From a virus, in IMG/VR virus record IMGVR_UViG_3300042556_002710, positions 1-34,131 of that record: a stretch of 34,131 nucleotides of DNA, one strand, 5' to 3'. Both the position numbers and the translations under genes were made by a program. Below the pieces are notes generated by a model, which worked only from the letters and a program-made list of their open reading frames with translations, did not search any database and was not told where the DNA came from. Below, piece after piece: positions 114-18,189 of this stretch; position 1 is the first letter of the stretch, and every line of letters begins with the position of its first letter.

Positions 114-125
114 TAGAATTTAAGT
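114..125 (+). promoter_or_regulatory. Putative -10 element for leaderless start of the oxygenase cluster
   Basis: TAGAAT at 114-119 fits the actinobacterial -10 pattern TANNNT and ends six bases before the ATG at 126, which has no Shine-Dalgarno. This would place the transcript start at or next to the start codon. No clear -35 is seen. The terminator just upstream supports a new transcription unit starting here. Confidence 0.45.
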
Positions 126-932
126 ATGCCTACAGCAAAAGACTCAAGCCCAAACATAAAGTGGCCACTTCCCCCGGGGAGGCCGGCTTTTTCTGTAAAA
201 AATTTTTTTCCGGTTAAAATTTATGAGTCAATTAGAGAGACTATAAAAACTAATGCAATCTGGGGGCCGGAACATCGGAACAATCCAGCCTGCGAGCCAT
301 ACCACACGATGACTGGTAGATGGACCACTGAAGTATTTTTTTCAGGAGAGATAAAAAATTTTTTAGAAGATTCTGCAAGAAAAAAATGGAAGAACAATAA
401 AATTAAATTAAAAAGCATATGGTTAAGCAGGTACCAACAGTATCAAGGAGTAACACCTTATTTATGGGAGCATATGGACCAAGGTCCCGCTCAATATGAA
501 ATTGACGTTTGTATAGAATCAAACAAAATAAACAATTGGGGGCTAATAGTAGACGGTCAAAGATTTGACGAGGAAGAAAATAATGCAATATTTTTTATGG
601 GACAACAACAGGCCCACGGGCGGCCACCCTATCCAGTAGATGATGAAGAAGCATATGTAATATTGCTTTTTGCCATGTTTGTAGATCCAAGTCATTGGAT
701 GTACGAAATAGATGCATACGCCGAGGAAGACGCCCCAAAATGGGATAAAGCCATAAAAAAATACAAACTCGACGGGGATATTAGGTATTACGAGTATTCT
801 GGCCATGCCCCCAGGTATGACAACAAACCCGACGGAAATTATCTATGCTCCAGAGGAGAATGCGGCCCCTGCACGGTAGTGCCAGAGAATTTTATAGATG
901 AAATAGACGGGTACATCAGACTTGACGAATAA
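126..932 (+). CDS. Divergent 2OG-Fe(II) oxygenase-like protein (paralogue 1 of 2)
   Basis: This 268-residue protein is probably a cupin-fold 2-oxoglutarate/Fe(II) oxygenase. A candidate metal triad is H116-x-D118 (EHMD) and H164 (QQAHGR), with R166 as a possible 2OG-binding residue. The stretch around 138-190 (WGLIVDGQRF, FFMG, AHGRPPYP, DPSHW) aligns by eye with the product of 1935-2537 (WPLIIEGREF, FMGG, MHSRGDMPYP, PEDHW), so the two are paralogues. They flank a glycosyltransferase gene. The C-terminus carries C241, C246 and C249 (CSRGECGPC), absent from the paralogue. It lacks the YEGGE signature of the seven P4H-like neighbours. The start is an ATG without Shine-Dalgarno behind a TAGAAT element. 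The substrate is unknown; the fibre proteins downstream are candidates. Family assignment is good, specific function unknown. Confidence 0.62.
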   Translation: MPTAKDSSPNIKWPLPPGRPAFSVKNFFPVKIYESIRETIKTNAIWGPEHRNNPACEPYHTMTGRWTTEVFFSGEIKNFLEDSARKKWKNNKIKLKSIWLSRYQQYQGVTPYLWEHMDQGPAQYEIDVCIESNKINNWGLIVDGQRFDEEENNAIFFMGQQQAHGRPPYPVDDEEAYVILLFAMFVDPSHWMYEIDAYAEEDAPKWDKAIKKYKLDGDIRYYEYSGHAPRYDNKPDGNYLCSRGECGPCTVVPENFIDEIDGYIRLDE

Positions 933-1929
933 AAAAATTCTTGTGTCGATGATTGCGTATAGAGAAAAATATTTAGCGGAGTCAGTAAAAGATTGCTACA
1001 AAAAAGCTAAAAATCCAGAAAATTTATTATTTTCTATAGTTTCAGAGCAAAGCAAAAAGGAACTCCACGCAAATTTAGATTTTATTCCAGAAAACCAAAT
1101 AATTTATAGAACATACGAGCTTACAGAATACCGAGGCGTTCTATGGTCTAGAGCAAAAACTTTAGAAGTAAATTTTGACTATGACTACATTTTGTATACG
1201 TGCGGCCACAACAGATTTGTAGAAGATTGGGACGAGAAAGTTTTTATAGAATATGAAAAATCAACAAAAAAAGCAGAAAAATCTTTAATAACAATTGCAG
1301 CCCCAGAGTATCGAGTTGGCAAAAACGGAGAAGCAATTACAGATGAGGATTGGCTTAGGCAATCTAATGTTAGACGACCAAAACTACATAATGGCTATAT
1401 TCCAGGCCACGGTTGGGCCAATGTTATTTCATTCTCAGACGGAGAAACCGATCTTTCTGAAGAATGCTATTTGCAGTTTAGCTGGGTATTTGCACCTAAA
1501 AAATATGTAGAAGAAGTTCCTTTAGACCCAGATATGAACTATCACGGGGAGGAAATTTATACGACTGTCCAAACTTGGTGTAGGGGGTGGAGAATGTTTA
1601 CTACTCCTCAAATTCTTTATTATCATGATACCTATAAAGAGTATTATGGCGAAGAAGAGTCTAGGATGACCACCCACAGACCATGGAGTGACACAAACAA
1701 AGACGCATTTTGGAAGCAATCTGACGAATCTATGTTGAAGTTAAATAAGCTGCTATCCGGAAATTTAGAGGGTAAGTACGGAAACATCTCAAAATCTTCC
1801 GTTTTAGAGTATTGTAATTTTTCCGGCCTTGACCCAAAATGGTGCGAGTATGATGAAAATTTTAATAGGCTGACAGTAAAAAGACATGCCGAAGATTTTA
1901 GATATGCTAACCCCAAGACAGAAATTTAA
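922..1929 (+). CDS. GlcNAc-transferase-like glycosyltransferase (Skp1 Gnt1 / PF11397-like)
   Basis: This is a 335-residue GT-A glycosyltransferase. Strand 1 is KKILVSMIAYR (4-14). It is followed by RGVLWSRAKTL (71-81), ILYTCGHNRFVEDWD (90-104), VPLDP (199-203), GEE (209-211) and H235 in ILYYHDTY. From memory, this order matches the family of the Dictyostelium Skp1 hydroxyproline GlcNAc-transferase (AR, DSHxRF..WD, VPYDP, GEE, H). The usual DxH metal motif reads C94-G-H96, so the Asp is replaced. The start is a TTG overlapping the previous gene by 11 bases; the next Met would remove the first beta strand. Family precedent plus ten surrounding oxygenases suggests it glycosylates hydroxylated residues on a phage protein. 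A DNA or cell-wall acceptor cannot be excluded. No signal peptide or membrane segment, so cytoplasmic. Confidence 0.75.
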   Translation: MTNKKILVSMIAYREKYLAESVKDCYKKAKNPENLLFSIVSEQSKKELHANLDFIPENQIIYRTYELTEYRGVLWSRAKTLEVNFDYDYILYTCGHNRFVEDWDEKVFIEYEKSTKKAEKSLITIAAPEYRVGKNGEAITDEDWLRQSNVRRPKLHNGYIPGHGWANVISFSDGETDLSEECYLQFSWVFAPKKYVEEVPLDPDMNYHGEEIYTTVQTWCRGWRMFTTPQILYYHDTYKEYYGEEESRMTTHRPWSDTNKDAFWKQSDESMLKLNKLLSGNLEGKYGNISKSSVLEYCNFSGLDPKWCEYDENFNRLTVKRHAEDFRYANPKTEI

Positions 1930-1934
1930 ATTTT

Positions 1935-2537
1935 ATGCATTTTGAACCAGTATTAATAGAAAATATATTTTCTATGGAAGATAGAAATAAGTTAATTGAA
2001 GTTTTAAAAACTAGCACCCCAAATAAAAATTGGCTAGACCCAGACAAAAATAGGGAAGTTAAAAAATACACCGAGCTAGAGACCTATTTTAGTAAAAAAT
2101 TAGAGCCAATTGCAAGGCAAATATTTAAAGATTCTTCGCTAAAAACTAGTTATTCAGTTTATTTAAATTACAATAAGCCAACCTCTAGTTTGCCTCCACA
2201 CAAAGATAATAATGCTTGCACGTATACAATAGACTATTGCGTATCACAAAAGACTCCCTGGCCCCTAATAATCGAGGGTAGAGAATTCCAGATTCCCGAA
2301 AACGCTGGCCTTGCATTTATGGGGGGGCATGACATGCACAGTAGGGGCGATATGCCCTACCCAGAGACAAATATTGTAGAGACAATAATGTTTCATTTCT
2401 GCCCAGAAGATCACTGGTACTTTACAGAAGGTCCAGAGTACGGCTATTATTTGCTTGATAATAATTTACTAGAAAATTTTGAATCTTACTATTTAAGCCC
2501 CCAGAGGAAACCAAAAGGAGATAGACTGTACCTATGA
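1935..2537 (+). CDS. Divergent 2OG-Fe(II) oxygenase-like protein (paralogue 2 of 2)
   Basis: This 200-residue protein has a likely Fe(II) triad of H89-x-D91 (PPHKD) and H135 (DMHSRG), with R137 nearby as a possible 2OG anchor. Family-like elements follow the HxD: YTIDYCV, WPLIIEGREF, then FMGG before the distal His. It is shorter than its paralogue at 126-932, mainly lacking the N-terminal 20-30 residues and the Cys-bearing tail. It begins five bases after the glycosyltransferase stop with an ATG lacking a clear Shine-Dalgarno, so it may be translationally coupled. It ends four bases into the next gene. Substrate unknown. Confidence 0.62.
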   Translation: MHFEPVLIENIFSMEDRNKLIEVLKTSTPNKNWLDPDKNREVKKYTELETYFSKKLEPIARQIFKDSSLKTSYSVYLNYNKPTSSLPPHKDNNACTYTIDYCVSQKTPWPLIIEGREFQIPENAGLAFMGGHDMHSRGDMPYPETNIVETIMFHFCPEDHWYFTEGPEYGYYLLDNNLLENFESYYLSPQRKPKGDRLYL

Positions 2538-3265
2538 GCGATTGGTTTACAAAAGACAGGTCAGAGACAGCGTCTAATAGAATGCCAGACAGGCAGTTTG
2601 CCCATACTACTGTTTTAAACCCAGCGTTGGGAATAAATGTATATAGAAATGCATTCCCCGAAGGGCAATGTAAAAAATTTATAGACACATTAGAGTCAAG
2701 TTTAAACGGCCAAACCCAGTGGGGCTGGAATGGAGCACACGTCACCACCTCTGAAGAAGTAGATTTAGAGTCTAGAAATGCAAAAGATTTTAAATTTAAT
2801 TCAGTGGGTCTAGGACCACGCACAGAAGAAAATTCTGCTTTGTATGACATGCACTCAGAAATTTTCAACACTGTCAGAGCCTGCGTAGATGACTATGGCC
2901 GCTACTGGGGCGTTGGAATTATGTCATATGAAGCATTTAATTTTGTTAAGTATGAGGGGGCTGGAACCCACTTCAAAATTCATGCTGACCATGGACCAAC
3001 ATATGTTACGACTGTATCAATAGTTGTCTACTTAAATGATGACTACGAAGGCGGCGAAATTTGGTTCCCAAGATTTGATTTAATCCATAAACCAAAAGCT
3101 GGCGACATTGTCGTATTTCCATCCACCTACATTTATGAGCACGCATCTCAAGATATGATTTCTGGGACTAAGTACTCTGTCGTCATCATGAGTGACTATA
3201 ATGACAGAGATAACGTTAACCAGAGAGTCCCACAAACCATTCAACAATATCAACTTAAGTACTAA
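2534..3265 (+). CDS. Prolyl 4-hydroxylase-like 2OG-Fe(II) oxygenase (copy 1)
   Basis: This 243-residue protein has the full P4Hc pattern. Y140 and G144 lead to H150-A-D152 (iron), then YLNDDYEGGEIWFP (166-179), KPKAGDIVVFPS, distal H203 (YEHAS) and K213 (SGTKYSV), the expected 2OG carboxylate anchor. P4Hc enzymes hydroxylate peptidyl proline, or related side chains, using O2 and 2-oxoglutarate. The N-terminal 30 residues look disordered; VLNPALGINVYRNAFP starts the fold. It starts at an ATG (ATGAGC) overlapping the previous stop by four bases, behind AAAGGAG. The likely substrates by context are the collagen-like fibres downstream, but this is inferred. Motifs are intact, so it should be catalytically active. 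Confidence 0.9.
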   Translation: MSDWFTKDRSETASNRMPDRQFAHTTVLNPALGINVYRNAFPEGQCKKFIDTLESSLNGQTQWGWNGAHVTTSEEVDLESRNAKDFKFNSVGLGPRTEENSALYDMHSEIFNTVRACVDDYGRYWGVGIMSYEAFNFVKYEGAGTHFKIHADHGPTYVTTVSIVVYLNDDYEGGEIWFPRFDLIHKPKAGDIVVFPSTYIYEHASQDMISGTKYSVVIMSDYNDRDNVNQRVPQTIQQYQLKY

Positions 3266-3278
3266 ATTGGAGAATAAA

Positions 3279-4061
3279 TTGTCAGAACAACTAGCTCAAG
3301 TAGATAGCGAATCATCTGCAGAGACTTCCTTGTCGAGGGAAGAAAAAGGAAAAATTGAACAAGAGCAGATGCAAGATAGACTCAGAAAATGGTACACAAT
3401 TGATGAAGTAACTTGGAGCTCTGCCGAAGAAGTCGTGCCAGGCTCCGGAATCTGGGTATATCACGATGTAATAACTCCAGATATGAGCGTTATTGATCGT
3501 CTAGAAGAGGTATTGATCAGTGACGATAATAACTACGAATACCAAGAAGCAATGGTTGGGTACTCCATGAAAATTCCCGAGTATCGCGACTGCGTAGATT
3601 TTAAATATAAAGAGCATGATTTTGACAACGACCAGAGCGAGTGGGGAGATAAATTAAGAAAACTAGCTCAAGAAACAAAATACAAGCAGCTACAAGTTGT
3701 AAAAGACTACACCAGAAGGTATAACATTGGTGAGCTTAGATATTGGGAAGCTACCAACTACGTTAAATATGGCCCGGGCCAACACTTTCAAGAGCACCAC
3801 GACCACGGGTACTCTTATAACTGCGTAGTTTCTTTGGTGGCTTTTCCCAACGACAACTACGAGGGCGGAGAACTATACTTCCGGCTACAAAATGTTATGG
3901 CTAAACCAAAGGCCGGAGATGTTTTTATCTTCCCATCAAACTTTATGTATCCACACAGAGCCATGCCGGTAAAGTCTGGAACTAAATACTCAATGGTAAC
4001 AATGCTTGACTATTCAGACAAGTTTCATGATGGAGTATTTTTAGAAGAAACAGGATCATAG
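3279..4061 (+). CDS. Prolyl 4-hydroxylase-like 2OG-Fe(II) oxygenase (copy 2)
   Basis: This 260-residue protein has Y164, G167, H173-H-D175 (EHHDHG), FPNDNYEGGELYF (189-201), KPKAGDVFIFPS, H226 (MYPHR) and K236 (SGTKYSM), a complete P4Hc active site. It is closest by eye to copy 1 (DHG after the HxD, matching SGTKYS and PKAGD blocks), which suggests tandem duplication. The frame is open further upstream to 3192, but the TTG at 3279 is preferred: GGAG sits eight bases before it and it avoids a 74-base overlap. The first 35 residues are polar, low-complexity and probably disordered. The substrate is not shown by the sequence. Confidence 0.9.
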   Translation: MSEQLAQVDSESSAETSLSREEKGKIEQEQMQDRLRKWYTIDEVTWSSAEEVVPGSGIWVYHDVITPDMSVIDRLEEVLISDDNNYEYQEAMVGYSMKIPEYRDCVDFKYKEHDFDNDQSEWGDKLRKLAQETKYKQLQVVKDYTRRYNIGELRYWEATNYVKYGPGQHFQEHHDHGYSYNCVVSLVAFPNDNYEGGELYFRLQNVMAKPKAGDVFIFPSNFMYPHRAMPVKSGTKYSMVTMLDYSDKFHDGVFLEETGS

Positions 4062-4062
4062 A

Positions 4063-4785
4063 TTGTCAGTAATCTCTGTAACTAGAGCATACCCGGACGC
4101 AGCTAATATTGAACAGCTACAAGCTCGCCGTGAGTGGATGGACGACACCCCAGAAAAGCACGCCTACATGTGCTTTCCGCTCAATTTAACAAATAGATTG
4201 GGTTGGGGGGTATCTTTCCCCGAGGAGATTAGATTTGTTTGGGACGGCATAACAGACACAACGCCAGACCACATAACTATTTTATCTGGGGAAAAATATG
4301 TTTATACCGGTAGAGGTAATGCAACAATTAGTTTTAATACTGGATTAATTTTTAAAACCGACAAGCAAACAACAATGCTCACCATGCCAGTTCCAAACTT
4401 ATTTATTAGGGGTGCTCAGTGTTATACAACCTTGATAAGCACTTCTTTTTATTTTCACACTCTGCCAATAGCGTGGAGAATTACAGAGCCAAATATTGAA
4501 ATAGTGATTCCAGCAAATATGCCAATTGCAACTGTTTTGCCGCTGTCTCTAACTCAGCTAGAAAACAATTATGAACTACAAATTAGCCCAGATTACCCAA
4601 CTGAAGAGTACTGGCAAGAAGTGAGAAAATACGGAGATGCGGCAGAAATCAAAAATGGCGTTGCCGACTGGTCAAAAATGTACAGAGATGCCGTAGATTA
4701 TCGAGGAAATTCAGTGGGCGCTCACGAGACAAAATCAATAAAATTAAAAACTTCTGTTTGTCCAGTAACCGGGAGGAGCTTATAG
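4063..4785 (+). CDS. DUF6065-like protein of unknown function (paralogue 1)
   Basis: This 240-residue protein starts at TTG 4063, two bases after the previous stop, behind AGGA. Conserved-looking blocks are YMCFPLNLTNRLGWGVSFP (35-53), a Trp/Asp-rich turn, MPVPNLF, TLISTSFYFHTLPIAW and IVIPANMPIATVLPLSL. From memory this resembles the DUF6065 family; I could not check it. The beta-rich pattern suggests a jelly-roll or cupin-like fold, but no HxD...H iron triad is evident. The next gene shares the pattern (P-x-N, LPF/LPI, IPA..P.A.ILP), so they look like a diverged pair. Placement inside an oxygenase operon suggests an accessory or substrate-handling role, which is inference. Confidence 0.6.
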   Translation: MSVISVTRAYPDAANIEQLQARREWMDDTPEKHAYMCFPLNLTNRLGWGVSFPEEIRFVWDGITDTTPDHITILSGEKYVYTGRGNATISFNTGLIFKTDKQTTMLTMPVPNLFIRGAQCYTTLISTSFYFHTLPIAWRITEPNIEIVIPANMPIATVLPLSLTQLENNYELQISPDYPTEEYWQEVRKYGDAAEIKNGVADWSKMYRDAVDYRGNSVGAHETKSIKLKTSVCPVTGRSL

Positions 4786-4787
4786 CC

Positions 4788-5528
4788 GTGGAAACTAAAA
4801 AAATTAGATTTGTAAAAAATAGACCATGGTTATCAGAAGAGAGTAATTCTACACCGAAACCAGTTATGAAAACTCTTCCAGACTGGTACAGAAAAGCAGA
4901 TCGATTTGCTATAAACCCTATGACTCAAAAGCCCTGGGAGATGCCAGATGGTAGCGGAAAAATTCCAACCTGGAAAGCGTGTCCAGCGGTTTTTGATGTT
5001 ATGGGCAGCGGATATGTGTATAGAACCCCCTGCGACATAGAGTTTTATGAAGATTCAATGGGCCAGATAAATGCAAAAGTTTTAGACAATCAAAATAATG
5101 ATTTTCTTCAAGTAAGACCCCCAATGCCACAGTTTGTGGCTCCTCAGGGATATCATGAAAAACACTTTGCTTGGTGGGCCGATTGGGCAGTAGAGCTGCC
5201 AGATGGATACAGTGCTCTGTACACTCAGCCAATGAATAGGTTTGAACTCCCTTTTTTGACAACCAGCGGGATTATTGACAATGACAAAGTTAATCTTCCT
5301 GGCACAATGCCATTTTTTGTAGTTAAGGGTTTTACCGGAATATTGCCAGCCGGAACCCCCTACGCGCAAATTTTGCCATTTAAGCGGGACCACTGGGAGT
5401 CTGAAATTGATGTTTCTTTAGAGTATGAAGAGATGGCAGAAAAAAACCAAAAAAATAGCGATAAGTATCGAGTACCAGACGGCGGCGTCTACCAAAAAGA
5501 GGTCTGGGAAAGGAGAAAGTATGAATAG
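4788..5528 (+). CDS. DUF6065-like conserved phage protein (paralogue 2)
   Basis: This 246-residue protein starts at GTG 4788, three bases after the previous stop, behind the strong Shine-Dalgarno GGGAGGAG. The open frame extends 30 bases further upstream, but that would overlap the upstream gene and lose this site. Notable blocks are KTLPDWYRKADRF, IPTWKACPAVFDVMGSGYV, YTQPMNRFELPFLTT and ILPAGTPYAQILPFKRDHW. The last two correspond to the end of the upstream DUF6065-like protein. It looks like a soluble beta-rich enzyme or binding protein, with no signal peptide or transmembrane segment. I recall similar PDWYK/CPA proteins in cyanophages and pelagic phages, but have no function for them. Its exact role is unknown. 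Confidence 0.6.
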   Translation: METKKIRFVKNRPWLSEESNSTPKPVMKTLPDWYRKADRFAINPMTQKPWEMPDGSGKIPTWKACPAVFDVMGSGYVYRTPCDIEFYEDSMGQINAKVLDNQNNDFLQVRPPMPQFVAPQGYHEKHFAWWADWAVELPDGYSALYTQPMNRFELPFLTTSGIIDNDKVNLPGTMPFFVVKGFTGILPAGTPYAQILPFKRDHWESEIDVSLEYEEMAEKNQKNSDKYRVPDGGVYQKEVWERRKYE

Positions 5529-5542
5529 GGTAGGATATAACC

Positions 5543-6223
5543 ATGTCTGATGAATACACAAATAATAGGTCTGGAGAGTTTGAATCCACCACCCCGTCTG
5601 GCTTTTTCGGGGACTCTGCAGACAACATTGTCGCTATTGAAGACTTTATGACAGAAGAAGAGCTGACAATTCTAAATGAGTTTGCTAGAAAAAACACTAT
5701 TTGGGACGTAACAGAAACACACTACGACGATGACGGAGTTGTGATTTACGACTCTGGTTACTGGGACCACAGGGTTGCCACCGAACCAACTCTAAATATT
5801 GCTGACCCAGAAATACCTAAAGTTATTAAAAATATGCAAAATAGATTAAAAACTAGAGTTGACGAATTTTTTAGTGTTGATGCCCATCCAACAAGCCCAG
5901 CAATTGTTAGATGGCTACCGGGACAGCGCCAACAACCACACGCAGACAAAGAACTACACGAAGGCGAAAACCGCGGAAAGCCTAATGACTTTCCCTACTA
6001 CGATATCGCAGGACTTTTTTATATAAATGATGACTACGAGGGAGGGGAACTTTACTTCCCAAATCAGGGTCTTCAATTTAAACCAAAAGCTGGAGCTGCT
6101 TACTTTTTCCCAGGTGACATGAATTATATCCACGGCGTCACAGAAATCAAGTCAGGAATAAGATATGTTTGTCCATTTTTCTGGACAATTAAATCCCACA
6201 CTGGCCCTCGGAAACCAGAATAA
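5543..6223 (+). CDS. Prolyl 4-hydroxylase-like 2OG-Fe(II) oxygenase (copy 3)
   Basis: This 226-residue protein has IVRWLPGQRQQPHAD, with iron ligands H133 and D135, then FYINDDYEGGELYFP (159-173), FKPKAGAAYFFPG, distal H197 (YIHGV) and R207 (SGIRYV). Arg replaces the Lys of copies 1 and 2 as the 2OG anchor. The fold begins at IVAIEDFMTEEELTILNEF (29-47), the helical start typical of P4Hc proteins. The ATG at 5543 follows TAGGAT, whose AGGA can act as Shine-Dalgarno; the hexamer also fits a leaderless -10 six bases upstream. Fourteen bases separate it from the preceding stop. An intact active site makes an active enzyme likely; the substrate is inferred only from neighbours. Confidence 0.9.
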   Translation: MSDEYTNNRSGEFESTTPSGFFGDSADNIVAIEDFMTEEELTILNEFARKNTIWDVTETHYDDDGVVIYDSGYWDHRVATEPTLNIADPEIPKVIKNMQNRLKTRVDEFFSVDAHPTSPAIVRWLPGQRQQPHADKELHEGENRGKPNDFPYYDIAGLFYINDDYEGGELYFPNQGLQFKPKAGAAYFFPGDMNYIHGVTEIKSGIRYVCPFFWTIKSHTGPRKPE

Positions 6224-6266
6224 AATATAGTAAAATAAATTAAACGCGAAAAGGTTAGGACCTACA

Positions 6267-7046
6267 GTGCATTTAGCTCAAAAACTTCATGAAGAAGTAT
6301 ATTTATATGAAGATGTAATCGATGATCCAGCAAAGCTTGTGTCCCTCATCGAGGACCTAGACGGGGATGAAACCGTTCACTCTGTTATTCCCGAGTGGGG
6401 GTTTTGGTTCTCTAATAGCGCTGATGGTCACAGTTTTGGTAGCAAAAAAGATTTTAATCTAGATTCGCTTGATTCACTACAAAGTCCAAGAGAAGAAGAT
6501 GTTAAATATGTAGTTGGTCAAATCCGCGGGGCAATAAAAAATGTTTCTGAGGCCTACTACCGCGACCGAGGCCTTGAAGGTGAGCCAAACATTTCTCCGT
6601 TTGCTGGAGTAATGAAGTACCGACCAGGCTGCGAGATGGGAGCACATTTTGATGCTCAGGCTGGCGACCAAACTCTTAAGTACTCGATTGTTGTGTATCT
6701 GAATGATAACTATGAGGGCGGAGAAATTTCTTTTATTATTAGAAAAGCAGACCTAAGAAACCCAAAAAATTCTCATCTTCGTCCAGTAGCAGATCTAAAA
6801 GATCCACACAATGAGGGGCTAATTGATTTCTCCTTAAAACCAAAGCCAGGATCTGCTTTAATCTTTCCATCTACCCACCCGTATAATCACCAGGTGCACA
6901 AGATTTATTCTGGAGATAAGTATATGTTCCCCGGTTTTGTATTTATCGATGAGTTTGATATTTCAAATCCAGAACACCGCGAAAAGTACAACGCCGGCTC
7001 ATCAATAGCTCAAGAGACCACGAAGTACCTAGACGAAGAAGATTAA
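6267..7046 (+). CDS. Prolyl 4-hydroxylase-like 2OG-Fe(II) oxygenase (copy 4)
   Basis: This 259-residue protein has YRPGCEMGAHFD (iron ligands H127, D129), YLNDNYEGGEISF (144-156), KPKPGSALIFPS, distal H208 (PYNHQVH) and K218 (SGDKYM). Between YEGGE and the KPKPG block there is an insertion of roughly 30 residues (about 159-187), as in copy 6 and unlike copies 1, 2, 3, 5 and 7. That loop often borders the active site in this fold, so a different substrate is plausible. It starts at GTG 6267 behind GGTTAGGA. The 43-base AT-rich spacer before it carries TATAGT at 6226-6231 as a weak promoter candidate. Confidence 0.9.
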   Translation: MHLAQKLHEEVYLYEDVIDDPAKLVSLIEDLDGDETVHSVIPEWGFWFSNSADGHSFGSKKDFNLDSLDSLQSPREEDVKYVVGQIRGAIKNVSEAYYRDRGLEGEPNISPFAGVMKYRPGCEMGAHFDAQAGDQTLKYSIVVYLNDNYEGGEISFIIRKADLRNPKNSHLRPVADLKDPHNEGLIDFSLKPKPGSALIFPSTHPYNHQVHKIYSGDKYMFPGFVFIDEFDISNPEHREKYNAGSSIAQETTKYLDEED

Positions 7047-7047
7047 A

Positions 7048-7686
7048 ATGTCACTAGACTATGAAATTCTTCACGAAAATGTTTACTATTTCCCTAAGGC
7101 AATACCAGACATTCAAAATTTATTAATTGACATAGAAAATTTTCATAGTGTAGCCGTTTCTCCTTGGGGCACTTGGTATGCAAATGATACTCCCGATAGT
7201 TATGCTTACGGTGACGTAAAAACATTCATGGTGTCTCTATTAAAAGAAGAGTTAGACCCAGAAAAATACATAAAAGCAGAAAGCATAATTTTTTCTCTTC
7301 TTGGTGCAATTGAAAACACTTGTGCTGAATACCTAAAGAAGCACGGGGCATCTCAAGAAGAGTTAGATTTTTTAAAAAAGTGTTTGTATGAAGATCCGTA
7401 CAGATTTGGGATAAGAAAATATAATCCAGGAGAATCAATGGGGCCACACCAGGACATGGTAGACCCAAATAGAGACACAATTACTATTTCTGTGTATCTA
7501 AACGATGAATACGAAGGCGGAGAAATCGCTGTAGTCGAGGGGGACTTAAATATTGCGATTAAAGCAAAAGCTGGAAGTATTGTAATATTTCCGTCAAACT
7601 ATCGACACGAGTCAAGGTTATTAAAATCTGGTAGAAAAATGTTAATTACTCATGTGCATATGCCAATTGACAGGGTAATAAAGTGA
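7048..7686 (+). CDS. Prolyl 4-hydroxylase-like 2OG-Fe(II) oxygenase (copy 5)
   Basis: This 212-residue protein is the shortest of the canonical copies. It shows RKYNPGESMGPHQD (H134, D136), YLNDEYEGGEI (150-160), AKAGSIVIFPS, distal H187 (YRHES) and K197 (SGRKML). The N-terminal half (EILHENVYYFPKAIPD, then SPWGTWYAND) parallels copy 4 (HEEVYLYEDVIDD, then PEWGFWFSN), so copies 4 and 5 look like a duplicated pair. The ATG lies one base after the previous stop and has only a weak GAAGAAG upstream. It overlaps the next gene by four bases, so it is likely translationally coupled in one operon. Confidence 0.9.
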   Translation: MSLDYEILHENVYYFPKAIPDIQNLLIDIENFHSVAVSPWGTWYANDTPDSYAYGDVKTFMVSLLKEELDPEKYIKAESIIFSLLGAIENTCAEYLKKHGASQEELDFLKKCLYEDPYRFGIRKYNPGESMGPHQDMVDPNRDTITISVYLNDEYEGGEIAVVEGDLNIAIKAKAGSIVIFPSNYRHESRLLKSGRKMLITHVHMPIDRVIK

Positions 7687-8528
7687 AAATTGTAGAACCA
7701 TTAACCTATTCTTCGTTGGAAGAATTAAAGTCTGACATTCAAAAAATTAAAACCGAGCTAAAAACTTTTCCAATTGTAGGAGTTAGAGGATTAAAAATCT
7801 CTAAAGACGAGCAACTTCAGCTAGCAAAAGATTTAGGAGATTTATTTAATTGGACTCCAAATAATACCACCGAGTTTAAGCACGAGTATACTGAAAACCA
7901 CTCTACTAATCCACAGCTGGAAAAATCTCTGGGACAAGAAATAATGCTAAATTGGCATTTAGAGCACGTAGATTATGATAACTACTCTCCTCTTGTAGTC
8001 GGGGTTTGGAATATGTATAAATATACCTGCAGCCCAGAAGTCGGGATGACTTATTTTATCGATTCCAGAGAAATATATAGTCTTATATATACTGAAGACG
8101 AAAAGTCATTTTTAAGAAATTGTATTTATTCTTGGCTACAGCCCTACCCCAATGACTTAACTTTAGAGAACACAGCAAAAATAGTTTCAACTCATTGGCT
8201 AGACGGCAGAGAGCAAATTAGGCTAGAGATGCATCACCTAAGCACTTTAAAACTGCTTAAATATGAAAACTCCGACCCAACAGAAGACCAAAAAAATATT
8301 TTTAATGGTCTAGTAGCACGATTTGTGGATGAAGTTTATAGCAATGAAGATCTTCGAATTGTCCACAAGTGGCAAGAAGGAGACATATTAATTCCAGATT
8401 TATATGCGCTAGCTCACGCAGTAACTGGAGGATTTTCACCGGAAGAGAGAGAATTTTCTGGCTACTGGTGTTATCTAAACTCTCCCGAAAATTTAAATAG
8501 TAGTAATGCTCACCCGAGCTGGTCATAG
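7683..8528 (+). CDS. TauD/TfdA-like 2OG-Fe(II) dioxygenase
   Basis: This 281-residue protein belongs to a different oxygenase branch. LNWHLEHVDY gives iron ligands H92 and E94 (HxE rather than the usual HxD). GMTYFIDSREIYSLI (121-135) matches the Gly-x-Thr and Tyr of the TauD fold. WQEGDILIPDLYALAHAV supplies the distal H245, and R256 in PEEREFSGYW is the probable 2OG-binding Arg. TauD-family enzymes usually hydroxylate small molecules or amino-acid side chains, so this one may act on a free metabolite, a residue other than proline, or a carrier-bound substrate. The GTG start overlaps the previous stop by four bases, behind AGGG. Substrate unknown. Confidence 0.8.
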   Translation: MKIVEPLTYSSLEELKSDIQKIKTELKTFPIVGVRGLKISKDEQLQLAKDLGDLFNWTPNNTTEFKHEYTENHSTNPQLEKSLGQEIMLNWHLEHVDYDNYSPLVVGVWNMYKYTCSPEVGMTYFIDSREIYSLIYTEDEKSFLRNCIYSWLQPYPNDLTLENTAKIVSTHWLDGREQIRLEMHHLSTLKLLKYENSDPTEDQKNIFNGLVARFVDEVYSNEDLRIVHKWQEGDILIPDLYALAHAVTGGFSPEEREFSGYWCYLNSPENLNSSNAHPSWS

Positions 8529-8536
8529 GAGCCCAA

Positions 8537-9466
8537 ATGGAAAACATAAAACTAGGTAAATACTCTGTAAAAGTTTTAGATTCAAAAATACTGGTTTTTC
8601 AGGATGTAATAGAAGATCCAGAGGGATTGATTGACTACTACGAAAAAAATGTTGAATGGGACGGCTGGCACGGGTTTGGTACACAAAGTAAAGAGCATGC
8701 AACAAGACTTTTTAGTGACGAGTTCCCCACAGAAGAGCAATACGCAGCTGATTTGATGGACAGAGTGCCAGAAAATCCATACAGAAATAAAATCTATAAA
8801 AATTTTTATGAGCTATCAAAACTATACACCGAGTACACCGGCATTAAACTAAAAAACTGGAGTACTGGCCAATGGTCAGTCGCAAAATACATTCCAGACG
8901 TAAATCATATAAATAATGAATTTAAGTCAATGGGCCACCACACCGACTACCAGCAAGATAGATATGGTCAACCCGGAGAAAAATTTGGGATAACTTCCGT
9001 ATTTTATCCGAACGATGATTACGAGGGCGGAGAGATATCTTTTAGAGTTTTAAATCTAAAAAATTTTTCTGTTGAAAAGGAAATAAATTACAAACCAAAA
9101 AAGGGTGAAGTAATATTTTTCCCATCTACAGAGCCCTACTATCACGGAGTTCTTCGAATATGGGGCAAGCCAAAATATATTATGAGACTTTACTGGCTAT
9201 GGAACGACGAGGGAAAAGATGGCTGGCACGACTTAAGAAGAAAGCACGGCAACGAGGCCTTCGAGCAGATGGAAAAAGATAGAATTAGACGCTTTGATTT
9301 GAGCGTTTATGAACCCGTGCAGCGGCCACTACTAACCTTTAAAGAATACTATGAAATGCTTGAAAACGGCACCCTGCCCCCGTTTATAGATAACGGAGAG
9401 CACGAAACTTTAGTTGCTCTAAGAAATAAAAAACTTAGTGAAGGATTTGAGCCATATGAGCTCTGA
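8537..9466 (+). CDS. Prolyl 4-hydroxylase-like 2OG-Fe(II) oxygenase with C-terminal extension (copy 6)
   Basis: This 309-residue protein is the longest P4H-like copy. The core holds VAKYIPDVNHIN, HHTD (iron ligands H135, D137), FYPNDDYEGGEISF (156-169), YKPKKGEVIFFPS, distal H203 (YYHGV) and K213 (KPKYIM). The N-terminal KILVFQDVIEDPEGLIDYYE resembles copy 4. After the core comes an extension of about 85 residues (225-309), rich in charged residues, that the other copies lack. It could be a substrate-recognition or oligomerisation arm. The ATG has a strong AGGAG six bases upstream. It ends 11 bases inside the start region of the next gene. Confidence 0.9.
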   Translation: MENIKLGKYSVKVLDSKILVFQDVIEDPEGLIDYYEKNVEWDGWHGFGTQSKEHATRLFSDEFPTEEQYAADLMDRVPENPYRNKIYKNFYELSKLYTEYTGIKLKNWSTGQWSVAKYIPDVNHINNEFKSMGHHTDYQQDRYGQPGEKFGITSVFYPNDDYEGGEISFRVLNLKNFSVEKEINYKPKKGEVIFFPSTEPYYHGVLRIWGKPKYIMRLYWLWNDEGKDGWHDLRRKHGNEAFEQMEKDRIRRFDLSVYEPVQRPLLTFKEYYEMLENGTLPPFIDNGEHETLVALRNKKLSEGFEPYEL

Positions 9467-9929
9467 ATTAAATAATTTACATTTAGATATGGTTTCAGAT
9501 TATAAACAAAAAGCGCAGCAAAAACAAGTTGACCACTACATGCTAACAATATCTAGAGACGGCGAGCAGCCAGTGCGTTCCATATATTTTTATGGGACAG
9601 CGCTAGAAGCAGCCAAGGGGTATGAGACATATCAAGACTGGGGATTTGCTAAAGACTACTTAACAGTAGAGCTTTATGAGCCAAATGGACAAGTTCACAG
9701 CAAAATTTTACGCAGACCCAGGGGCGGCGAATGCGTTTTTGAGCGGGCCCAGTATTATCAAATTTCTGATATATTAAACGCCACTAAGCCAAAAATAGAC
9801 GAAGATACATTCAACTACCTGGCTTACGAGTTTGCTAAGCTATTCTCAAAGGATAACCAAAGATTTAATCCAGAAAGATTTTTGTCGGAACTGGGATATA
9901 CAGGAGAAATAAATGACAGACACGTCTAG
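9456..9929 (+). CDS. Unknown protein inside the oxygenase cluster
   Basis: I do not recognise this 157-residue protein. The ATG at 9456 is chosen because AAGGA lies ten bases upstream; an upstream alternative at 9438 would extend it by six residues. It is soluble, with a beta-rich first half (HYMLTISRDGEQPVRSIYFYGT, YLTVELYEPNGQVHSKIL) and an alpha-helical, charged second half (FNYLAYEFAKLF, NPERFLSELGY). No HxD...H triad, zinc ligands or nucleotide motifs are seen. It overlaps the previous gene by 11 bases and the next by 17, so it is tightly coupled to two P4H-like genes. A partner or chaperone role is possible but unproven. Confidence 0.7.
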   Translation: MSSELNNLHLDMVSDYKQKAQQKQVDHYMLTISRDGEQPVRSIYFYGTALEAAKGYETYQDWGFAKDYLTVELYEPNGQVHSKILRRPRGGECVFERAQYYQISDILNATKPKIDEDTFNYLAYEFAKLFSKDNQRFNPERFLSELGYTGEINDRHV

Positions 9930-10647
9930 CATTGCTACGACCGCCACCGAGTTTGGCGATAAAGGGTTTATAAAAGAAGACGTTATTTTCTACAATAACT
10001 TTTTGACCGAGGAAGAGTGCAAAACTATTGTAAAGGTCTTCGAGGACCCAGAACAGCCTTGGAGTATGTCAGCTTTCTTCGAGTCATATGGGATGAGCAT
10101 TATGCCCGAAGATCCAATTTTGGAGCGCTACGGATTACCAATAGATTATTTTGGTAAGCTAGCTGATCGTTTACATAAGGTAGTAGAAGATGCCCACCAA
10201 CGTCCAGTAAAATCTGTTTCAAGTCACGCTCAAAAATGGCAAGAAGGAGCGTTTGCACCATTTCACTCAGATAATACCGACATGGAGGGAAACTGGTCGG
10301 CCTGGGAACGCAGTAAGTTAGTTTGTCTGCTATATTTAAATGAGGATTATGACGGTGGAGAGCTAGATTTTAGGGACCACGACATCTGCATAAAACCAGT
10401 AGCCGGTCAACTAATTACTTTCCCTGGTGGATATCAAAATATACACCAAGTGCTCCCCGTAAAAAATGGTACTCGCCACACAATAGGGGCTTTCTGGGAC
10501 TACGCAGAGTCAGAATACTCTGAAGAGCGCATGAAAGAGTGGGAAGACGAGATTCAAAAGGTTAGGGATGAGCAAAAAGTCCAGCAAGACGAGTGGAAAG
10601 AGCTACTTGCCAGCGGTCAACATCCAATGGATCAGCAGCCCCAATAA
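9913..10647 (+). CDS. Prolyl 4-hydroxylase-like 2OG-Fe(II) oxygenase (copy 7)
   Basis: This 244-residue protein has AQKWQEGAFAPFHSD (H118, D120), YLNEDYDGGELDF (141-153), KPVAGQLITFPGG, distal H178 (NIHQV) and R188 (GTRHTIG). It is the most diverged of the seven: YDGGE replaces YEGGE, and Arg replaces Lys at the 2OG site as in copy 3. FYNNFLTEEECKTIVKVFED (26-45) is the usual P4Hc N-terminal helix. The C-terminal 45 residues form a charged, probably coiled helix (EERMKEWEDEIQKVRDEQ). The ATG has AGGAGA upstream. It is the last gene before the fibre genes, with 62 bases between. Confidence 0.9.
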   Translation: MTDTSSIATTATEFGDKGFIKEDVIFYNNFLTEEECKTIVKVFEDPEQPWSMSAFFESYGMSIMPEDPILERYGLPIDYFGKLADRLHKVVEDAHQRPVKSVSSHAQKWQEGAFAPFHSDNTDMEGNWSAWERSKLVCLLYLNEDYDGGELDFRDHDICIKPVAGQLITFPGGYQNIHQVLPVKNGTRHTIGAFWDYAESEYSEERMKEWEDEIQKVRDEQKVQQDEWKELLASGQHPMDQQPQ

Positions 10648-10709
10648 GTCAATTTAGCCAAATTGAGGTAAAATTATAGGGACTAGTCTATTCCCTGTAA
10701 GGACGCTCG
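10648..10709 (+). promoter_or_regulatory. Spacer between oxygenase and fibre genes with inverted repeat
   Basis: A 6-bp inverted repeat CAATTT (10650-10655) / AAATTG (10660-10665) is followed by TAAAAT at 10669-10674, a -10 candidate, and then AAGGA at 10699-10703 before the ATG. No convincing -35 is seen. It may be a separate late promoter or operator for the tail-fibre genes. The palindrome is short and could be chance. Confidence 0.35.
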
Positions 10710-11086
10710 ATGACGCATCTTCGCGGCAATGTTCACGACCTGATTACAGACCAAGGTTCTACTGTAAATCAAGTATTCACTGTGAAAAATTCTGCACGCC
10801 GCTCAATTGACCTTACAGGCTACGTGGCTCGTATGCAAGTTAGAAGAAGGGACGCTGTGACCAGGGACCCAGCTACCGTTGTTATTGCTAACTACACAAC
10901 TGAAAATGGTTACCTAACCGTTAATGGCCCAGCGGGGACTGTTTCTTTATTAATTCCCCCCGCAGATATGGCAGCATACGAGCCAGGAATTTATGTATAC
11001 GACCTAGAAGTCGAAACTGAAAATGCTGGAGACACTACCCGCATCGTTCAAGGAAAATTTATTGTGAGAGCTGAGGTGACCAGATA

Positions 11087-11087
<1 letters not shown>
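10710..11087 (+). CDS. Small beta-sandwich phage tail/baseplate-associated protein
   Basis: This 125-residue protein shows the pattern [75 protein letters not shown] recall this type of beta-sandwich protein just before or within fibre genes of many phages, where DLTGY, YDLE and EVTR recur; it probably connects a fibre to the baseplate or tail. The ATG follows AAGGA by six bases. Its TAG overlaps the GTG of the first collagen-like fibre by one base, indicating coupling and perhaps assembly of the two products together. The function is inferred from position and pattern. Confidence 0.65.
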
Positions 11088-15893
<4,806 letters not shown>

Positions 15894-15894
<1 letters not shown>

Positions 15895-16799
15895 TGTCTG
15901 GCGTATTGGCCGGATTGATCGGGTCGTACTCTGTTGCGCCACCAAGTGGTGGAACAATCACTACGTCTGGTAGCTACACATACCACACATTTACTTCTTC
16001 TGGAAATTTTGTAAACACAGTTCAAAATTTAAATGTTGAATATTTAATTGTAGCGGGAGGTGGCAGCGCTTCTACTAGTTTTCACGGTGGCGGTGGCGGT
16101 GGTGCGGGTGGTTTACGGACTGGCTCTCTCGCCATCGAGGCAGTTAGTTATCCGGTCGTAGTCGGGGCGGGCGGATCGACAACACCAGCAAGTAACACAA
16201 ATGGATCAAAAGGAAATGATTCATCGTTTGGTTCTTTCCCTGCAACTCAGGCTGCCGGTGGGGGCGCTGGCATTATGAATTGGGAAAATACCATTGCTAA
16301 CGGTGGATCTGGTGGCGGAGCGTGTAATGTTTCTGGTAATCCATCTTTTAGAGGAACTGGAATTTCCGGGCAAGGAAATAATGGTGGAAGTTCTTTTGCA
16401 TCCAACTCAGAGATGTCTTGGCCAGGCGGCGGCGGGGGTGGAGCAGGTCAAGTTGGTCAAAATGCACAGAGCGTAAACTACGGCGGCGCGGGAGGGAACG
16501 GACTACAATACTCGACCTGGGCAACTGCAACTAATACAGGAGACGGCGGATACTATGCAGGTGGTGGCGCTGGAGGAATTAACGGACAAGCTGTTGGAGC
16601 TGGTATTAGCAACGCCATTCAGGGGGGACTGGGCGGAGGCGGAAATAGTGGCGTTTGGTTTGGTCCATCCAACGGATATCCGGGTGATATAAATACGGGT
16701 GGCGGCGGCGGAGCACCCAATTTTGGCAATGGCAGTACTGGCGGAGCTGGTGGTTCCGGCATTGTGATAATTAGATATTTAACAAGTCAGGTCCCATAA
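15894..16799 (+). CDS. Glycine-rich tail adhesin
   Basis: This 301-residue protein starts at ATG 15894 (overlapping TGATG). An upstream in-frame ATG at 15864 is rejected because it would overlap fibre 2 by 31 bases. After YTYHTFTSSGNF and VEYLIVAGGG come repeated glycine runs (GGGGGGAGG, GGGGGGAGQVG, GGAGGNG, YAGGGAGG, GGLGGGGNSG, GGGGGAPNFG) alternating with variable loops. The end is GGAGGSGIVIIRY. From family knowledge, such proteins resemble T-even gp38-type adhesins, whose glycine tracts pack as polyglycine-II helices and whose loops bind the receptor. Location after the fibres fits a receptor-binding tip. No metal or catalytic motif is seen. Confidence 0.8.
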
Positions 16800-16800
16800 T

Positions 16801-17136
16801 ATGGCTCACTTTGCTGAAATAGATGAAAATAATGTTGTACTAAGAGTTGTGGTAGTTCCAGACACCGAGGAAAACAGGGGAAACGAGTTTCTGTCTGTAG
16901 ACCTAGGATTAGGCGGAACTTGGATTCAAACTTCATATAATGACAACATTAGAAAGCAATTCGCCGGGATTGGATTTACCTATAATCCAGAAAATGACGT
17001 ATTTATCAGGCCTAAACCTTATGAATCTTGGGGTCTTGATGCCAATTTTGATTGGCAGCCACCAGTTCCAATGCCAAACCACGGGGCATGGATTTGGAGC
17101 GAAGAATCTATGTCTTGGCTAGAAATAGTAGAATAA
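16801..17136 (+). CDS. Conserved small phage protein of tail-fibre region
   Basis: This 111-residue protein has FAEIDENNVVLRVVVV, GLGGTWIQTSYND, FAGIGFTYNPENDVFIRPKP and a Trp-rich end (GAWIWSEESMSWLEIVE). Proteins of this pattern are common in marine and freshwater phages near fibre genes; I recall them as conserved but functionally unassigned. The ATG lies one base after the adhesin stop with only AGG nearby. Trp- and Tyr-rich beta structure suggests a virion component or a fibre chaperone. The function is unknown. Confidence 0.7.
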   Translation: MAHFAEIDENNVVLRVVVVPDTEENRGNEFLSVDLGLGGTWIQTSYNDNIRKQFAGIGFTYNPENDVFIRPKPYESWGLDANFDWQPPVPMPNHGAWIWSEESMSWLEIVE

Positions 17137-17154
17137 CCAAAATAAAGGATAGGA

Positions 17155-17166
17155 TACAATAAAAGG
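17155..17166 (+). promoter_or_regulatory. TACAAT element six bases before ATG of fibre 3
   Basis: TACAAT (17155-17160) fits TANNNT and lies six bases before the ATG at 17167, as at the other proposed leaderless starts. An AGGATA at 17151 is also present but is spaced unusually far (about 12 bases) for a Shine-Dalgarno. Confidence 0.35.
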
Positions 17167-18168
17167 ATGCCAACAATAAATTTTCCAGATAATCCGCTAA
17201 TAGGGCAGGTGTTTACAAGTGGGTCCCAATCATGGACCTGGAATGGCACGTACTGGGAAGCCAATAAGACAGCTGTTTTGCTCGGCCCTACGGGCCCAAC
17301 AGGGCCAACAGGCCCCACTATTACAGTTAGTATTGGTGATGTAACTCCGGTAGCAGCAGAATTTGCCAATGTGTTTGTTTCTGGAAGTAATGAAAATGTT
17401 ATTTTAAACTTTGATGTGCCTCAGGGACCACCTGGGCCCTCTGGAATAAATTTAAATATAGTTTCAAATGTTCCAGATGTAGATTCACTTCCAGATAATG
17501 ACAATCAATTAAATGATGCATTTATTGTTGAAGAAGATGGTTGTCTTTATGTTTGGACGGGAGAATTTTGGAATAACGCTGGTCAAATTGTAGGGCCTCA
17601 GGGACCTACTGGTGATACAGGTCCTACTGGACCGCAAGGTGACACAGGGCCAGAAGGTGCTGCATCAACAATCCCTGGACCGCAAGGCGAACTTGGACCT
17701 ACTGGACCAACTGGCGCAACGGGACCTGCGAGCAATGTAACTGGCCCAACTGGCCCCACGGGGTCGCAAGGTATTGAAGGCCCCACCGGCCCCACCGGCC
17801 CCACGGGAGCTGCAAGCACAGTCGCTGGTCCAACTGGCGCAACGGGTGTAACTGGCCCCACGGGGTCGCAAGGTATTGAAGGCCCCACCGGCCCAACAGG
17901 AGCTACTGGAGCTGCTAGCACAACGCCGGGGCCAACAGGAGCTACTGGTCCCACAGGGCCGCAAGGTATTCAAGGCCCAACGGGTCCGACAGGCCCCACG
18001 GGAGTTGGCGCTTATTCAGGCACTACACCAGTAAGTATTTCTGGGAGCTCAATCTCTTTATCTGGTGGATATGCTTTTTATCAAGCTGGTAATTCTTACC
18101 CTGTAATATATGTAGGAACAACAGCGCCATCCAGCGCAAATACCGGAGATATCTGGATTAGCTTCTAA
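17167..18168 (+). CDS. Collagen-like tail fibre protein 3
   Basis: This 333-residue, shorter fibre shares the N-terminal cap of fibre 2 ([22 protein letters not shown]). A short GPT tract is followed by a beta module ([20 protein letters not shown]). PQGPPGPSG then leads into a WDG module (nt about 17446-17590; [20 protein letters not shown]). A main collagen tract follows (17591-18003) with ASNVT, ASTVA and ASTTP links. The C-terminal 55 residues ([20 protein letters not shown] to WISF) form a small beta tip. The same cap and module suggest it attaches in the same way as fibre 2. GPP occurs here, which puts a rare Pro at position Y. Confidence 0.88.
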
Positions 18169-18189
18169 AAAGATCGGGCAGGGTAAAAA

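Follow-up and report, generated by a model that had tools for sequence, protein, structure and literature searches.

A 2OG-Fe(II) oxygenase array in a freshwater phage and its candidate (FFPP)n-tail substrate

Which proteins does a phage modify when it carries ten 2OG-Fe(II) oxygenase genes in a row? The question is raised by a freshwater phage contig (IMG/VR record IMGVR_UViG_3300042556_002710), whose full 34,131 nucleotides are referred to here as the window. Its oxygenase array lies directly 5' of fibre genes, and the first-pass annotation had read it as a modification system for three collagen-like fibres. Aquatic phages can carry several 2OG oxygenases per genome. Comparison of 80 collected array loci points to a further candidate substrate encoded upstream of the array, a protein whose C-terminus is a (Phe-Phe-Pro-Pro)n tail.

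Gene content and active sites of the array

All array genes lie on the plus strand, in an order and adjacency that are fixed among the mapped loci. The array opens with oxA (126–932), followed by a glycosyltransferase gene (922–1929; PF11397, 73.8 bits, cut-off 21) of the Skp1-hydroxyproline GlcNAc-transferase family, of which Gnt1 is presumably a member, and by oxB (1935–2537). Seven genes match PF13640 at 31.7–50.1 bits in the profile search (cut-off 27), namely P1 (2534–3265; 43.1 bits), P2 (3192–4061; 50.1), P3 (5543–6223; 31.7), P4 (6267–7046; 44.3), P5 (7048–7686; 43.4), P6 (8537–9466; 37.6), and P7 (9913–10647; 43.8), the last oxygenase of the array. The real start of P2 is perhaps 3' of its first GTG. 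A TauD-like gene (7683–8528; PF02668, 53.7 bits, cut-off 27) stands between P5 and P6. P2 and P3 are separated by D (4063–4785), a DUF6065 protein (PF19541, 94.3 bits, cut-off 26.6), and J (4758–5528; phrog_7084, 119 bits), which adjoins D in mapped array loci. The gene u (9438–9929), of no assigned family and matched by 19 open reading frames including that of the window, precedes the last oxygenase in some arrays.

The count of ten oxygenases ahead of three collagen-like genes was right, because it is borne out by the seven PF13640 matches, the TauD-like enzyme, and the oxA/oxB motifs together with the oxA fold. In alignment, all seven PF13640 copies keep the HxD histidine and aspartate, the distal histidine and, ten residues on, a K/R, as originally described. 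The TauD-like enzyme has H92-x-E94, H245, and R256 invariant across 12 sequences, the window included. BLASTP joins the two divergent paralogues, oxA and oxB (1.9e-11), and H116-x-D118, H164, and R166 are invariant in a 21-sequence alignment including both. The Pfam search gave no oxygenase match for either. HH-suite, run with the oxA/oxB, D, and J family alignments against P4H and TauD and among themselves, returned no confident match (best p-value of oxA/oxB against P4H 0.02–0.06, with HxD and H aligned). The assignment of oxA is settled by its AlphaFold2 model (pLDDT 93.5), whose predicted fold is that of a 2OG oxygenase. Foldseek matched this model to 389 PDB chains at E ≤ 1e-3, and the 50 listed are all of the 2OG oxygenase class. 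The accompanying remark that one or two oxygenases per phage are known was mistaken, as PF13640 has five matches in Syn19, five in P-SSM4, and 11 in Sf-FS3 (E ≤ 1e-3). Four, four, and seven of these exceed the cut-off, and they are dispersed along the cyanophage genomes. A 2010 survey gives up to five 2OG oxygenases per cyanophage (PMC3037559).

The oxygenase tree defines a core of three enzymes. The P1, P2, and P3 clades hold exactly one member each from all 16 arrays, with or without collagen, and the long-branch joins flagged by the program lie deeper in the tree than these three clades. All three are present in L156, L179, L303, L318, and L344, loci in which the array has no adjoining collagen. 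The accessory P5 clade (12 rows from seven arrays) occurs in this sample only in arrays bearing B, the small protein that opens the collagen module, and collagen. Mapped arrays carry 2 to 12 PF13640-type genes. The earlier suggestion that each enzyme acts at a different site agrees with the three orthologue groups kept in 16 of 16 arrays and is otherwise only partly supported. Comparison with PDB sequences, which covered the three core enzymes, gave matches at E 3e-5 to 0.03 that include a bacterial prolyl 4-hydroxylase (3itq/5hv0), the PKHD hydroxylase PiuC, and the procollagen lysyl hydroxylase LH3. P1 matches 3itq/5hv0 at E 3e-5, with weaker matches for P2 and P3. This is a kinship of sequence, and 4-hydroxylation of peptidyl proline is their putative activity.

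The window has the PF11397 gene, as do only 15 of the 80 array loci, many of which are cut on that side; in one of the 15 it lies 8 kb from the array. The AlphaFold2 model of D (pLDDT 84.5) has a predicted dUTPase-like fold, with a VIA Z of 11.3 to dUTPase 3lqw, but at 4.4 Å over 125 residues; Foldseek gives TMt of about 0.7 and TMq of 0.4. J has matches in 49 records of a 50,697-record phage collection, nearly all haloarchaeal viruses, and W09, the one J-matching record checked, has no PF13640 and no FFPP. Neither D nor the FFPP protein found a match in this collection, where the BLAST low-complexity filter may hide the tail.

The FFPP-tail protein and its co-occurrence with the array

Window bases 1–57 (plus strand) are the final 18 codons and stop of the gene 5' of the array, translating to PRFAMSSIDERDLDKKNK before the stop. 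The contig begins just 3' of the expected repeat, and the first-pass annotation missed the protein because the contig breaks inside its gene. Proteins of relatives end alike (PPRFGMSSIDERELDAENEEPQKEE in L141, PPRFAITSIDERELAKEADSVEDTEEDPKEPKAE in L143), and from these endings we infer an FFPP tail for the window phage. The protein consists of one or more fn3 domains followed by the C-terminal tail, and an Mtd_N-type protein usually adjoins it. Its gene lies upstream in 57 of the 58 array loci that extend 800 b or more on that side (22 of the 80 were not evaluable); in the exception, L165, the tail is a degenerate FFP one. The gap to the array has a median of 63 b and a maximum of 157 b (55 measured). 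The 53 distinct tails contain 45% Phe, 42% Pro, and 5.5% Tyr. Third bases of their proline codons vary (A 674, G 449, T 260, C 11), so conservation acts on the peptide and not on the DNA. One feature counts against a link with the array, an intrinsic-terminator-like hairpin at 72–99 (plus strand; 12-pair stem, then a T-run) that separates the two. A terminator scan of positions 1–18400 returned 20 sites against 18.0 in shuffles, so that this hairpin is weak evidence alone.

The repeat and the array accompany each other in both directions. Among relatives retrieved through a replication gene, the loose FFPP pattern occurs in 8/8 array-bearing and 1/19 array-free records (Fisher p = 4e-6, for contigs that are phylogenetically non-independent). 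The exception, G022, carries its repeats within a He_PIG protein that adjoins collagen. These relatives are a subset of a larger set, in which this pattern was present in 23 of 23 records with PF13640 and 1 of 27 without. Conversely, IMG/VR records retrieved by the FFPP DNA pattern alone contained PF13640 in 47 of 50 cases (46 over the cut-off). In 49 of the 50 the pattern lay in an open frame that spanned no fewer than 60 aa and held four or more motifs, the other being cut by the locus end. A YFPP pattern retrieved 50 new records, 42 with PF13640 and 46 with the open frame. Contigs lacking PF13640 measured 19–38 kb (3/50, FFPP) and 5.7–25 kb (8/50, YFPP). A Pro-Ala-repeat control gave PF13640 in 1/50, and in that record an FFPP gene lies directly 5' of the array. 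Oxygenase number correlates weakly with FFP motif number (Spearman 0.35, n = 28, p = 0.07).

PF13640 alone does not imply FFPP, since the pattern was not found in three cyanophages with 5–11 scattered PF13640 matches or in three marine single-cell viruses with 1–4. A GTDB scan covering the genomes of 84,980 species gave 17 FFPP DNA matches, eight of them inside an open frame of 60 aa or more that contains four or more motifs. Gene calling kept four; oxygenase, D/J, or Mtd_N genes adjoin three, and on account of these neighbours the matches are probably viral contigs in MAGs. The AAA_24 replication-gene tree intermixes array-bearing and array-free records, and with 1/21 inner branches well supported it is too poorly resolved for array gains and losses to be counted.

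Candidate substrates of the oxygenases

Gene content, intact active-site motifs, conserved order, and the two-way FFPP–array co-occurrence with its control were observed directly. On this basis, we consider it rather probable that the array is a cassette for post-translational modification of host-recognition proteins (tail adhesins) that the phage itself encodes, with the upstream FFPP protein as its main and most general target. P1, P2, and P3 would form a conserved core that hydroxylates repeat prolines with O2 and 2-oxoglutarate, perhaps with a separate position or repeat context for each enzyme. P4–P7, the TauD-like enzyme, and oxA/oxB may add further hydroxylations on the tail or neighbouring fibres, perhaps including the collagens. 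Where present, the PF11397 enzyme would place GlcNAc on hydroxyproline, like Gnt1 on Skp1. Such hydroxylation would make the tail, a very hydrophobic run of aromatic residues and proline, polar, sticky, or glycan-bearing. The FFPP protein would thus be both substrate and virion component, and the modification might serve adhesion. We advance a broader version tentatively, as something that may well prove too ambitious. Phages of aquatic bacteria would employ oxygenases numbering from the core three to around a dozen, DUF6065-family helpers, and sometimes a hydroxyproline glycosyltransferase, in a dedicated system that hydroxylates several distinct positions of an (FFPP)n virion protein. The product would be a hydroxyproline-rich, mussel-foot- or extensin-like tail adhesive, and a prokaryotic virus would possess a hydroxyproline-rich (glyco)protein pathway of its own.

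An unlikely alternative is that the array chiefly hydroxylates the collagen-like fibres, at X-position Pro or at the Thr of Gly-Pro-Thr, stabilising the triple helix. In the window, the collagen module opens with B (10710–11087; phrog_1084/phrog_3304, phrog_1084 75.1 bits), a small tail-fibre-associated protein. Fibre 1 follows (11087–13393; 180 bits; 154 triplets, X-Pro 73, Y-Pro 1), then fibre 2 (13393–15894; 174 bits; 142 triplets, X-Pro 75, Y-Pro 1) and fibre 3 (17167–18168; 54 bits; 41 triplets, X-Pro 24, Y-Pro 0), all on the plus strand. Gly-Pro-Thr is prominent, as had been noted, at 128 of 337 triplets. Proline in position Y is the classical P4H site, and the collagen P4H system's substrate position holds proline in 2/337 triplets, which speaks against this alternative. 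The restriction of the P5 clade to collagen-bearing arrays in the 16-array sample favours it. So does the proline content, with X-Pro at 0.19–0.51 in 24 array-bearing loci (0.14–0.35 in L177, L182, and L180, array loci with only 13–17 triplets) and Pro-free collagens (0.01–0.03) only in array-free loci, one of which, L235, has a single PF13640 gene. Yet X-Pro composition is not diagnostic of the array, because several array-free phages have Pro-rich collagens. DSL-LC01, a complete array-free relative of 129,469 b, encodes five collagens (X-Pro 0.56, top triplet Gly-Pro-Thr) without PF13640, and G023 and G007 likewise carry Gly-Pro-Thr collagens without it.

The survey of related phages that the first annotation had called for gave a divided answer. 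Collagen lies within 3 kb downstream in 22 of the 32 array loci with at least 2.5 kb on that side, the window included, which favours the collagen reading. The array occurs without it in the other ten, an outcome that the annotation had itself named as refuting its reading, and a gene of ~1230 aa lies downstream instead. In the 16-array sample, the core enzymes of arrays without adjoining collagen belong to the identical groups. In G048, the one record looked at, this gene is followed by portal and head genes, and one short collagen-like gene stands apart from the array. G055 (30.6 kb; ten PF13640 matches, nine over the cut-off) has no collagen gene in L296 and L210, which overlap and cover all of it. 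All these array records are fragments, and collagen may therefore lie elsewhere in the genomes. Among the replication-gene-found relatives, collagen occurs in 8/8 array-bearing and 11/19 array-free records (Fisher p = 0.06, again for phylogenetically non-independent contigs). Moreover, a prophage collagen domain lacking prolyl hydroxylation reportedly does not melt below 42 °C (PMC3368898). Collagen as sole substrate was rejected as a general explanation, given the arrays without adjoining collagen and the array-free collagen phages.

We give little credence to the reading in which the oxygenases modify Mtd_N-type receptor-binding or large neighbouring tail proteins, with FFPP and collagen just sharing the adhesin locus. 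Mtd_N accompanies the array (7/8 array-bearing against 0/19 array-free replication-gene-found records), and among the 38 array loci that offer 4 kb or more of upstream sequence, every one has there either an Mtd_N-like gene or another of at least 400 aa. However, in the examples compared, Mtd_N-like proteins contain 2.1–3.6% Pro against 10.6–16.8% in FFPP proteins, and FFPP is kept in seven array loci without Mtd_N (L100, L127–L130, L133, and L134; four apparently one population). The original notion of a fibre-modification system is supported for host-recognition proteins as targets, by position (an Mtd_N-like gene within 6.5 kb upstream in 31/38, FFPP in 57/58), and its specific collagen link is weak. 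Action on nucleobases, glycans, or small molecules, as mere cargo of a variable region comparable to cyanophage hypervariable regions, is similarly improbable: a sub-threshold Tet_JBP match of P3 (E 0.005, 16.6 bits, cut-off 34.9), the predicted dUTPase-like fold of D, the glycosyltransferases and TauD in the array, and the DNA repair proposed for cyanophage 2OG genes (PMC3037559) are consistent with it, but one specific Pro-rich repeat accompanies the array (47/50 against 1/50), gene order and adjacency are fixed, and the solved-structure matches of the core enzymes are mostly protein hydroxylases.

Comparison with known hydroxylation systems

The FFPP link offers a concrete and simple candidate peptide substrate, with collagen fragments as a ready control. 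If true, it would define a virus-encoded pathway of proline hydroxylation, perhaps also of glycosylation, that acts on virion adhesins and relies on O2 and 2-oxoglutarate in the host, as well as a new natural repeat material. Among open-licence PMC papers, none was found on FFPPFFPP, and no title on phage prolyl hydroxylation appeared among the matches listed.

Cyanophage 2OG-Fe(II) oxygenases (phrog_61) belong to the same superfamily and also occur several per genome (Sullivan 2010, PMC3037559). Unlike the array, they are spread along the genome, and the three genomes tested lack FFPP. The Dictyostelium Skp1 system likewise pairs a P4H-type enzyme (PhyA) with a hydroxyproline GlcNAc-transferase (Gnt1), the phage counterpart being assigned by family, and Gnt1 acts on hydroxylated Skp1 (PMC3515798). 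In contrast to the phage arrays, only some of which carry the glycosyltransferase, Skp1 is a eukaryotic signalling protein modified at one Pro (PMC3515798).

The animal collagen P4H, P3H, and lysyl hydroxylases share the 2OG chemistry, and many phage arrays have nearby collagen genes. The window's collagens, however, are nearly without classical X-Pro-Gly, and the array is kept in loci without adjoining collagen. The mimivirus collagen hydroxylase is another 2OG/collagen system for comparison. Plant and algal hydroxyproline-rich glycoproteins, and the P4H of chlorella virus PBCV-1 with its Pro-rich repeats, offer a further parallel. There too, P4H-like enzymes go with Pro-rich repeats, and in PBCV-1 both enzyme and repeats are viral. 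The phage arrays, whose activity is putative, differ from these systems in their 2 to 12 PF13640-type genes, their aromatic FFPP repeat, their DUF6065/phrog_7084 partners, and their tail-adhesin setting.

Gene content and conservation of the array

The first-pass annotation described a row of ten 2OG-Fe(II) oxygenases ahead of collagen-like fibres, and this description is borne out. Positions 126-10647 of the 34,131-base IMG/VR fragment encode these enzymes together with a PF11397 glycosyltransferase (GT, 922-1929), the DUF6065 protein D (4063-4785), the phrog_7084 protein J (4758-5528) and one unknown. All ten oxygenases keep their active-site residues in alignments, and the divergent enzyme oxA (126-932) is predicted to adopt the fold of 2OG oxygenases. 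A small fibre-associated gene, B (10710-11087), lies 3' of the array and is followed by the collagen-like genes. Two further genes lie 3' of the fibre region: one, at 23044-23904, looks like a glycosyltransferase by eye but has no Pfam match, and the other, at 25597-26664, is of the GT2 family.

The AAA_24/RecA-like gene of the fragment shares 81% identity with its counterpart in Actinomycetia phage DSL-LC01, a lake phage of 129,469 b, and 66-69% with those of Microbacterium phages of 186-195 kb. A WhiB gene is also encoded, which fits an actinobacterial host.

Relatives of the array were collected by scanning IMG/VR with the oxygenase P2 (3192-4061), and the best 80 of 317 loci were used. Gene order among these 80 is strikingly constant: oxA, GT and oxB (1935-2537) as a variable leading group, P1 (2534-3265), P2, D, J, P3 (5543-6223), variable oxygenases, often a TauD gene and gene u (9438-9929), B, and collagen. 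In the mapped loci, D and J are neighbours and separate P2 from P3. Residues 1-178 of D are modelled with a dUTPase-like fold (VIA Z 11.3); for J, the phage collection contains 49 records with a match, almost all of them from haloarchaeal viruses. Where upstream sequence reaches 4 kb or more, 31 of 38 loci encode an Mtd_N-like domain protein on that side of the array. Whole-record searches of P2-scan and replication-gene-anchored records detected PF13640 in 30/49, with 4 to 15 matches each, and collagen in 38/49. The cultured cyanophage Synechococcus phage Sf-FS3 has eleven PF13640 matches, seven of them over the cut-off, and the Phe-Phe-Pro-Pro (FFPP) pattern was not found in its genome.

Phylogenetic analysis of 122 PF13640-type proteins, drawn from 16 arrays, separates a conserved core from accessory enzymes. 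Each of P1, P2 and P3 falls in its own supported clade, to which every array contributes a single member whether or not it has collagen; most later enzymes show longer branches and patchier membership. This pattern fits core enzymes that each act on a different, non-redundant site of a common substrate, and the accessory enzymes would serve variable substrates. Members of the accessory P5 clade (7048-7686) occur only in arrays with B or collagen behind them, and this clade is the strongest candidate for an enzyme directed at collagen.

An FFPP-tail protein upstream of the array

A gene encoding a protein of about 180-460 aa adjoins the array on its upstream side. The product ends in a tail such as ...PPFFPPFFPPFFPPYFPFFPPFFPP.... 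In some members the tail is followed by a Cys-rich end or by a domain resembling Hint/intein, the latter on sub-threshold Pfam matches. The Hint/intein-like ends (L099:7775-9151, L128:7720-9057 and L145:7758-9146) suggest self-cleavage after the repeat. Among eight array-linked FFPP proteins scanned, seven have fn3 domains over the Pfam cut-off. The gene is present at 57 of 58 array loci having at least 800 b upstream, and the 58th carries a degenerate version.

Window bases 1-57 code for residues matching the end of this protein. Hence, the repeat is probably where the contig broke, which placed the gene outside the view of the first-pass annotation. Relative G002, a 154-kb contig, carries aromatic-Pro repeats of the same strand at its two ends and may be an otherwise near-complete genome that likewise broke at the repeat. 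In some relatives, a second FFP-repeat protein is encoded within the collagen block or next to it (L185:4483-5463 and L184:10976-11809, both on the minus strand, and L175:1564-2526), with a He_PIG domain in both members scanned (L185 and L175). The translation of the window He_PIG protein (18190-19782) contains no FFP repeat.

Co-occurrence of FFPP repeats and oxygenases

Co-occurrence was assessed in 50 records, of which 27 were picked by a replication gene alone and 14 by P2; the remainder were picked by B, apart from the record of DSL-LC01 itself. A loose FFPP pattern matched 23/23 PF13640-positive records against 1/27 PF13640-negative ones, the sole exception being a 32.7-kb fragment (G022); a backward control pattern also matched four PF13640-positive records, 2 to 5 times each. 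Within the replication-gene subset, the FFPP pattern separated array from array-free records (8/8 versus 1/19, p=4e-6), as did Mtd_N (7/8 versus 0/19, p=9e-6), and collagen gave 8/8 versus 11/19 (p=0.06); these p-values are merely indicative because the records are not independent lineages.

The reverse test scanned IMG/VR for the FFPP DNA pattern alone. At least 120 stretches match, and PF13640 was present in 47 of 50 records taken from the 80 matches listed (all at least 16.7 kb). A YFPP DNA pattern gave 42/50 (50 of the 55 records that were new); the eight records without a PF13640 match span 5.7 to 25 kb, and a custom profile detects an oxygenase locally in three of them. A Pro-Ala-repeat control gave 1/50 (50 of 80 listed records, mostly the longer ones, at least 10.8 kb), and in the single positive record an FFPP gene immediately precedes the array. 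The match falls within an open frame carrying four or more motifs in 49/50 FFPP and 46/50 YFPP loci.

Substrate of the array

Glycosylation offers a lead. PF11397, the family whose prototype is Gnt1, is represented in the window and at 15 of the best 80 of 317 P2-scan loci (at one of these the gene is 8 kb from the array), and thus in a minority of arrays. Its presence within a prolyl-hydroxylase-like cassette is suggestive of glycosylation. Gnt1 modifies the hydroxyproline that PhyA makes on Skp1, according to PMC3515798.

Collagen hydroxylation is possible as a secondary function. Of the 32 array loci, window included, for which 2.5 kb or more of downstream sequence exists, 22 have collagen within 3 kb. 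The other 10 carry a gene of about 1230 aa in its place; portal and head genes come next in G048, the one annotated record. In the window fibres, Pro occupies X in 172/337 triplets and Y, the classical P4H site, in 2/337. DSL-LC01 (L186 and L190), a lake actinophage, has five Pro-rich collagens with Pro at X, and PF13640 was not found in its complete genome. This phage carries a TauD gene elsewhere in the genome and a gene annotated as tryptophan halogenase beside the collagens. PMC3368898 reports that a prophage collagen domain lacking prolyl hydroxylation melts at 42 C, and remarks on the missing Y-Pro preference. Near-Pro-free collagen-like genes (X-Pro 0.01-0.03; GTT, GAQ and GTQ triplets in those printed) occur at loci without the array (L216-L222, L227, L229, L234-L236 and L254), one of which (L235) has one PF13640 gene. 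The scarcity of Pro at Y, the DSL-LC01 collagens without PF13640 and the prophage collagen domain speak against collagen as the sole substrate, as do the 10 of 32 loci without collagen within 3 kb.

The earlier collagen reading probably mistook the substrate, because nearly all of the adjoining FFPP gene lay outside the window. Precedents are known for the two ingredients, the oxygenase chemistry and Pro-rich repeats in viruses; none was found, in searches of open-licence PMC papers, for a multi-enzyme phage cassette tied to an FFPP-tail protein.
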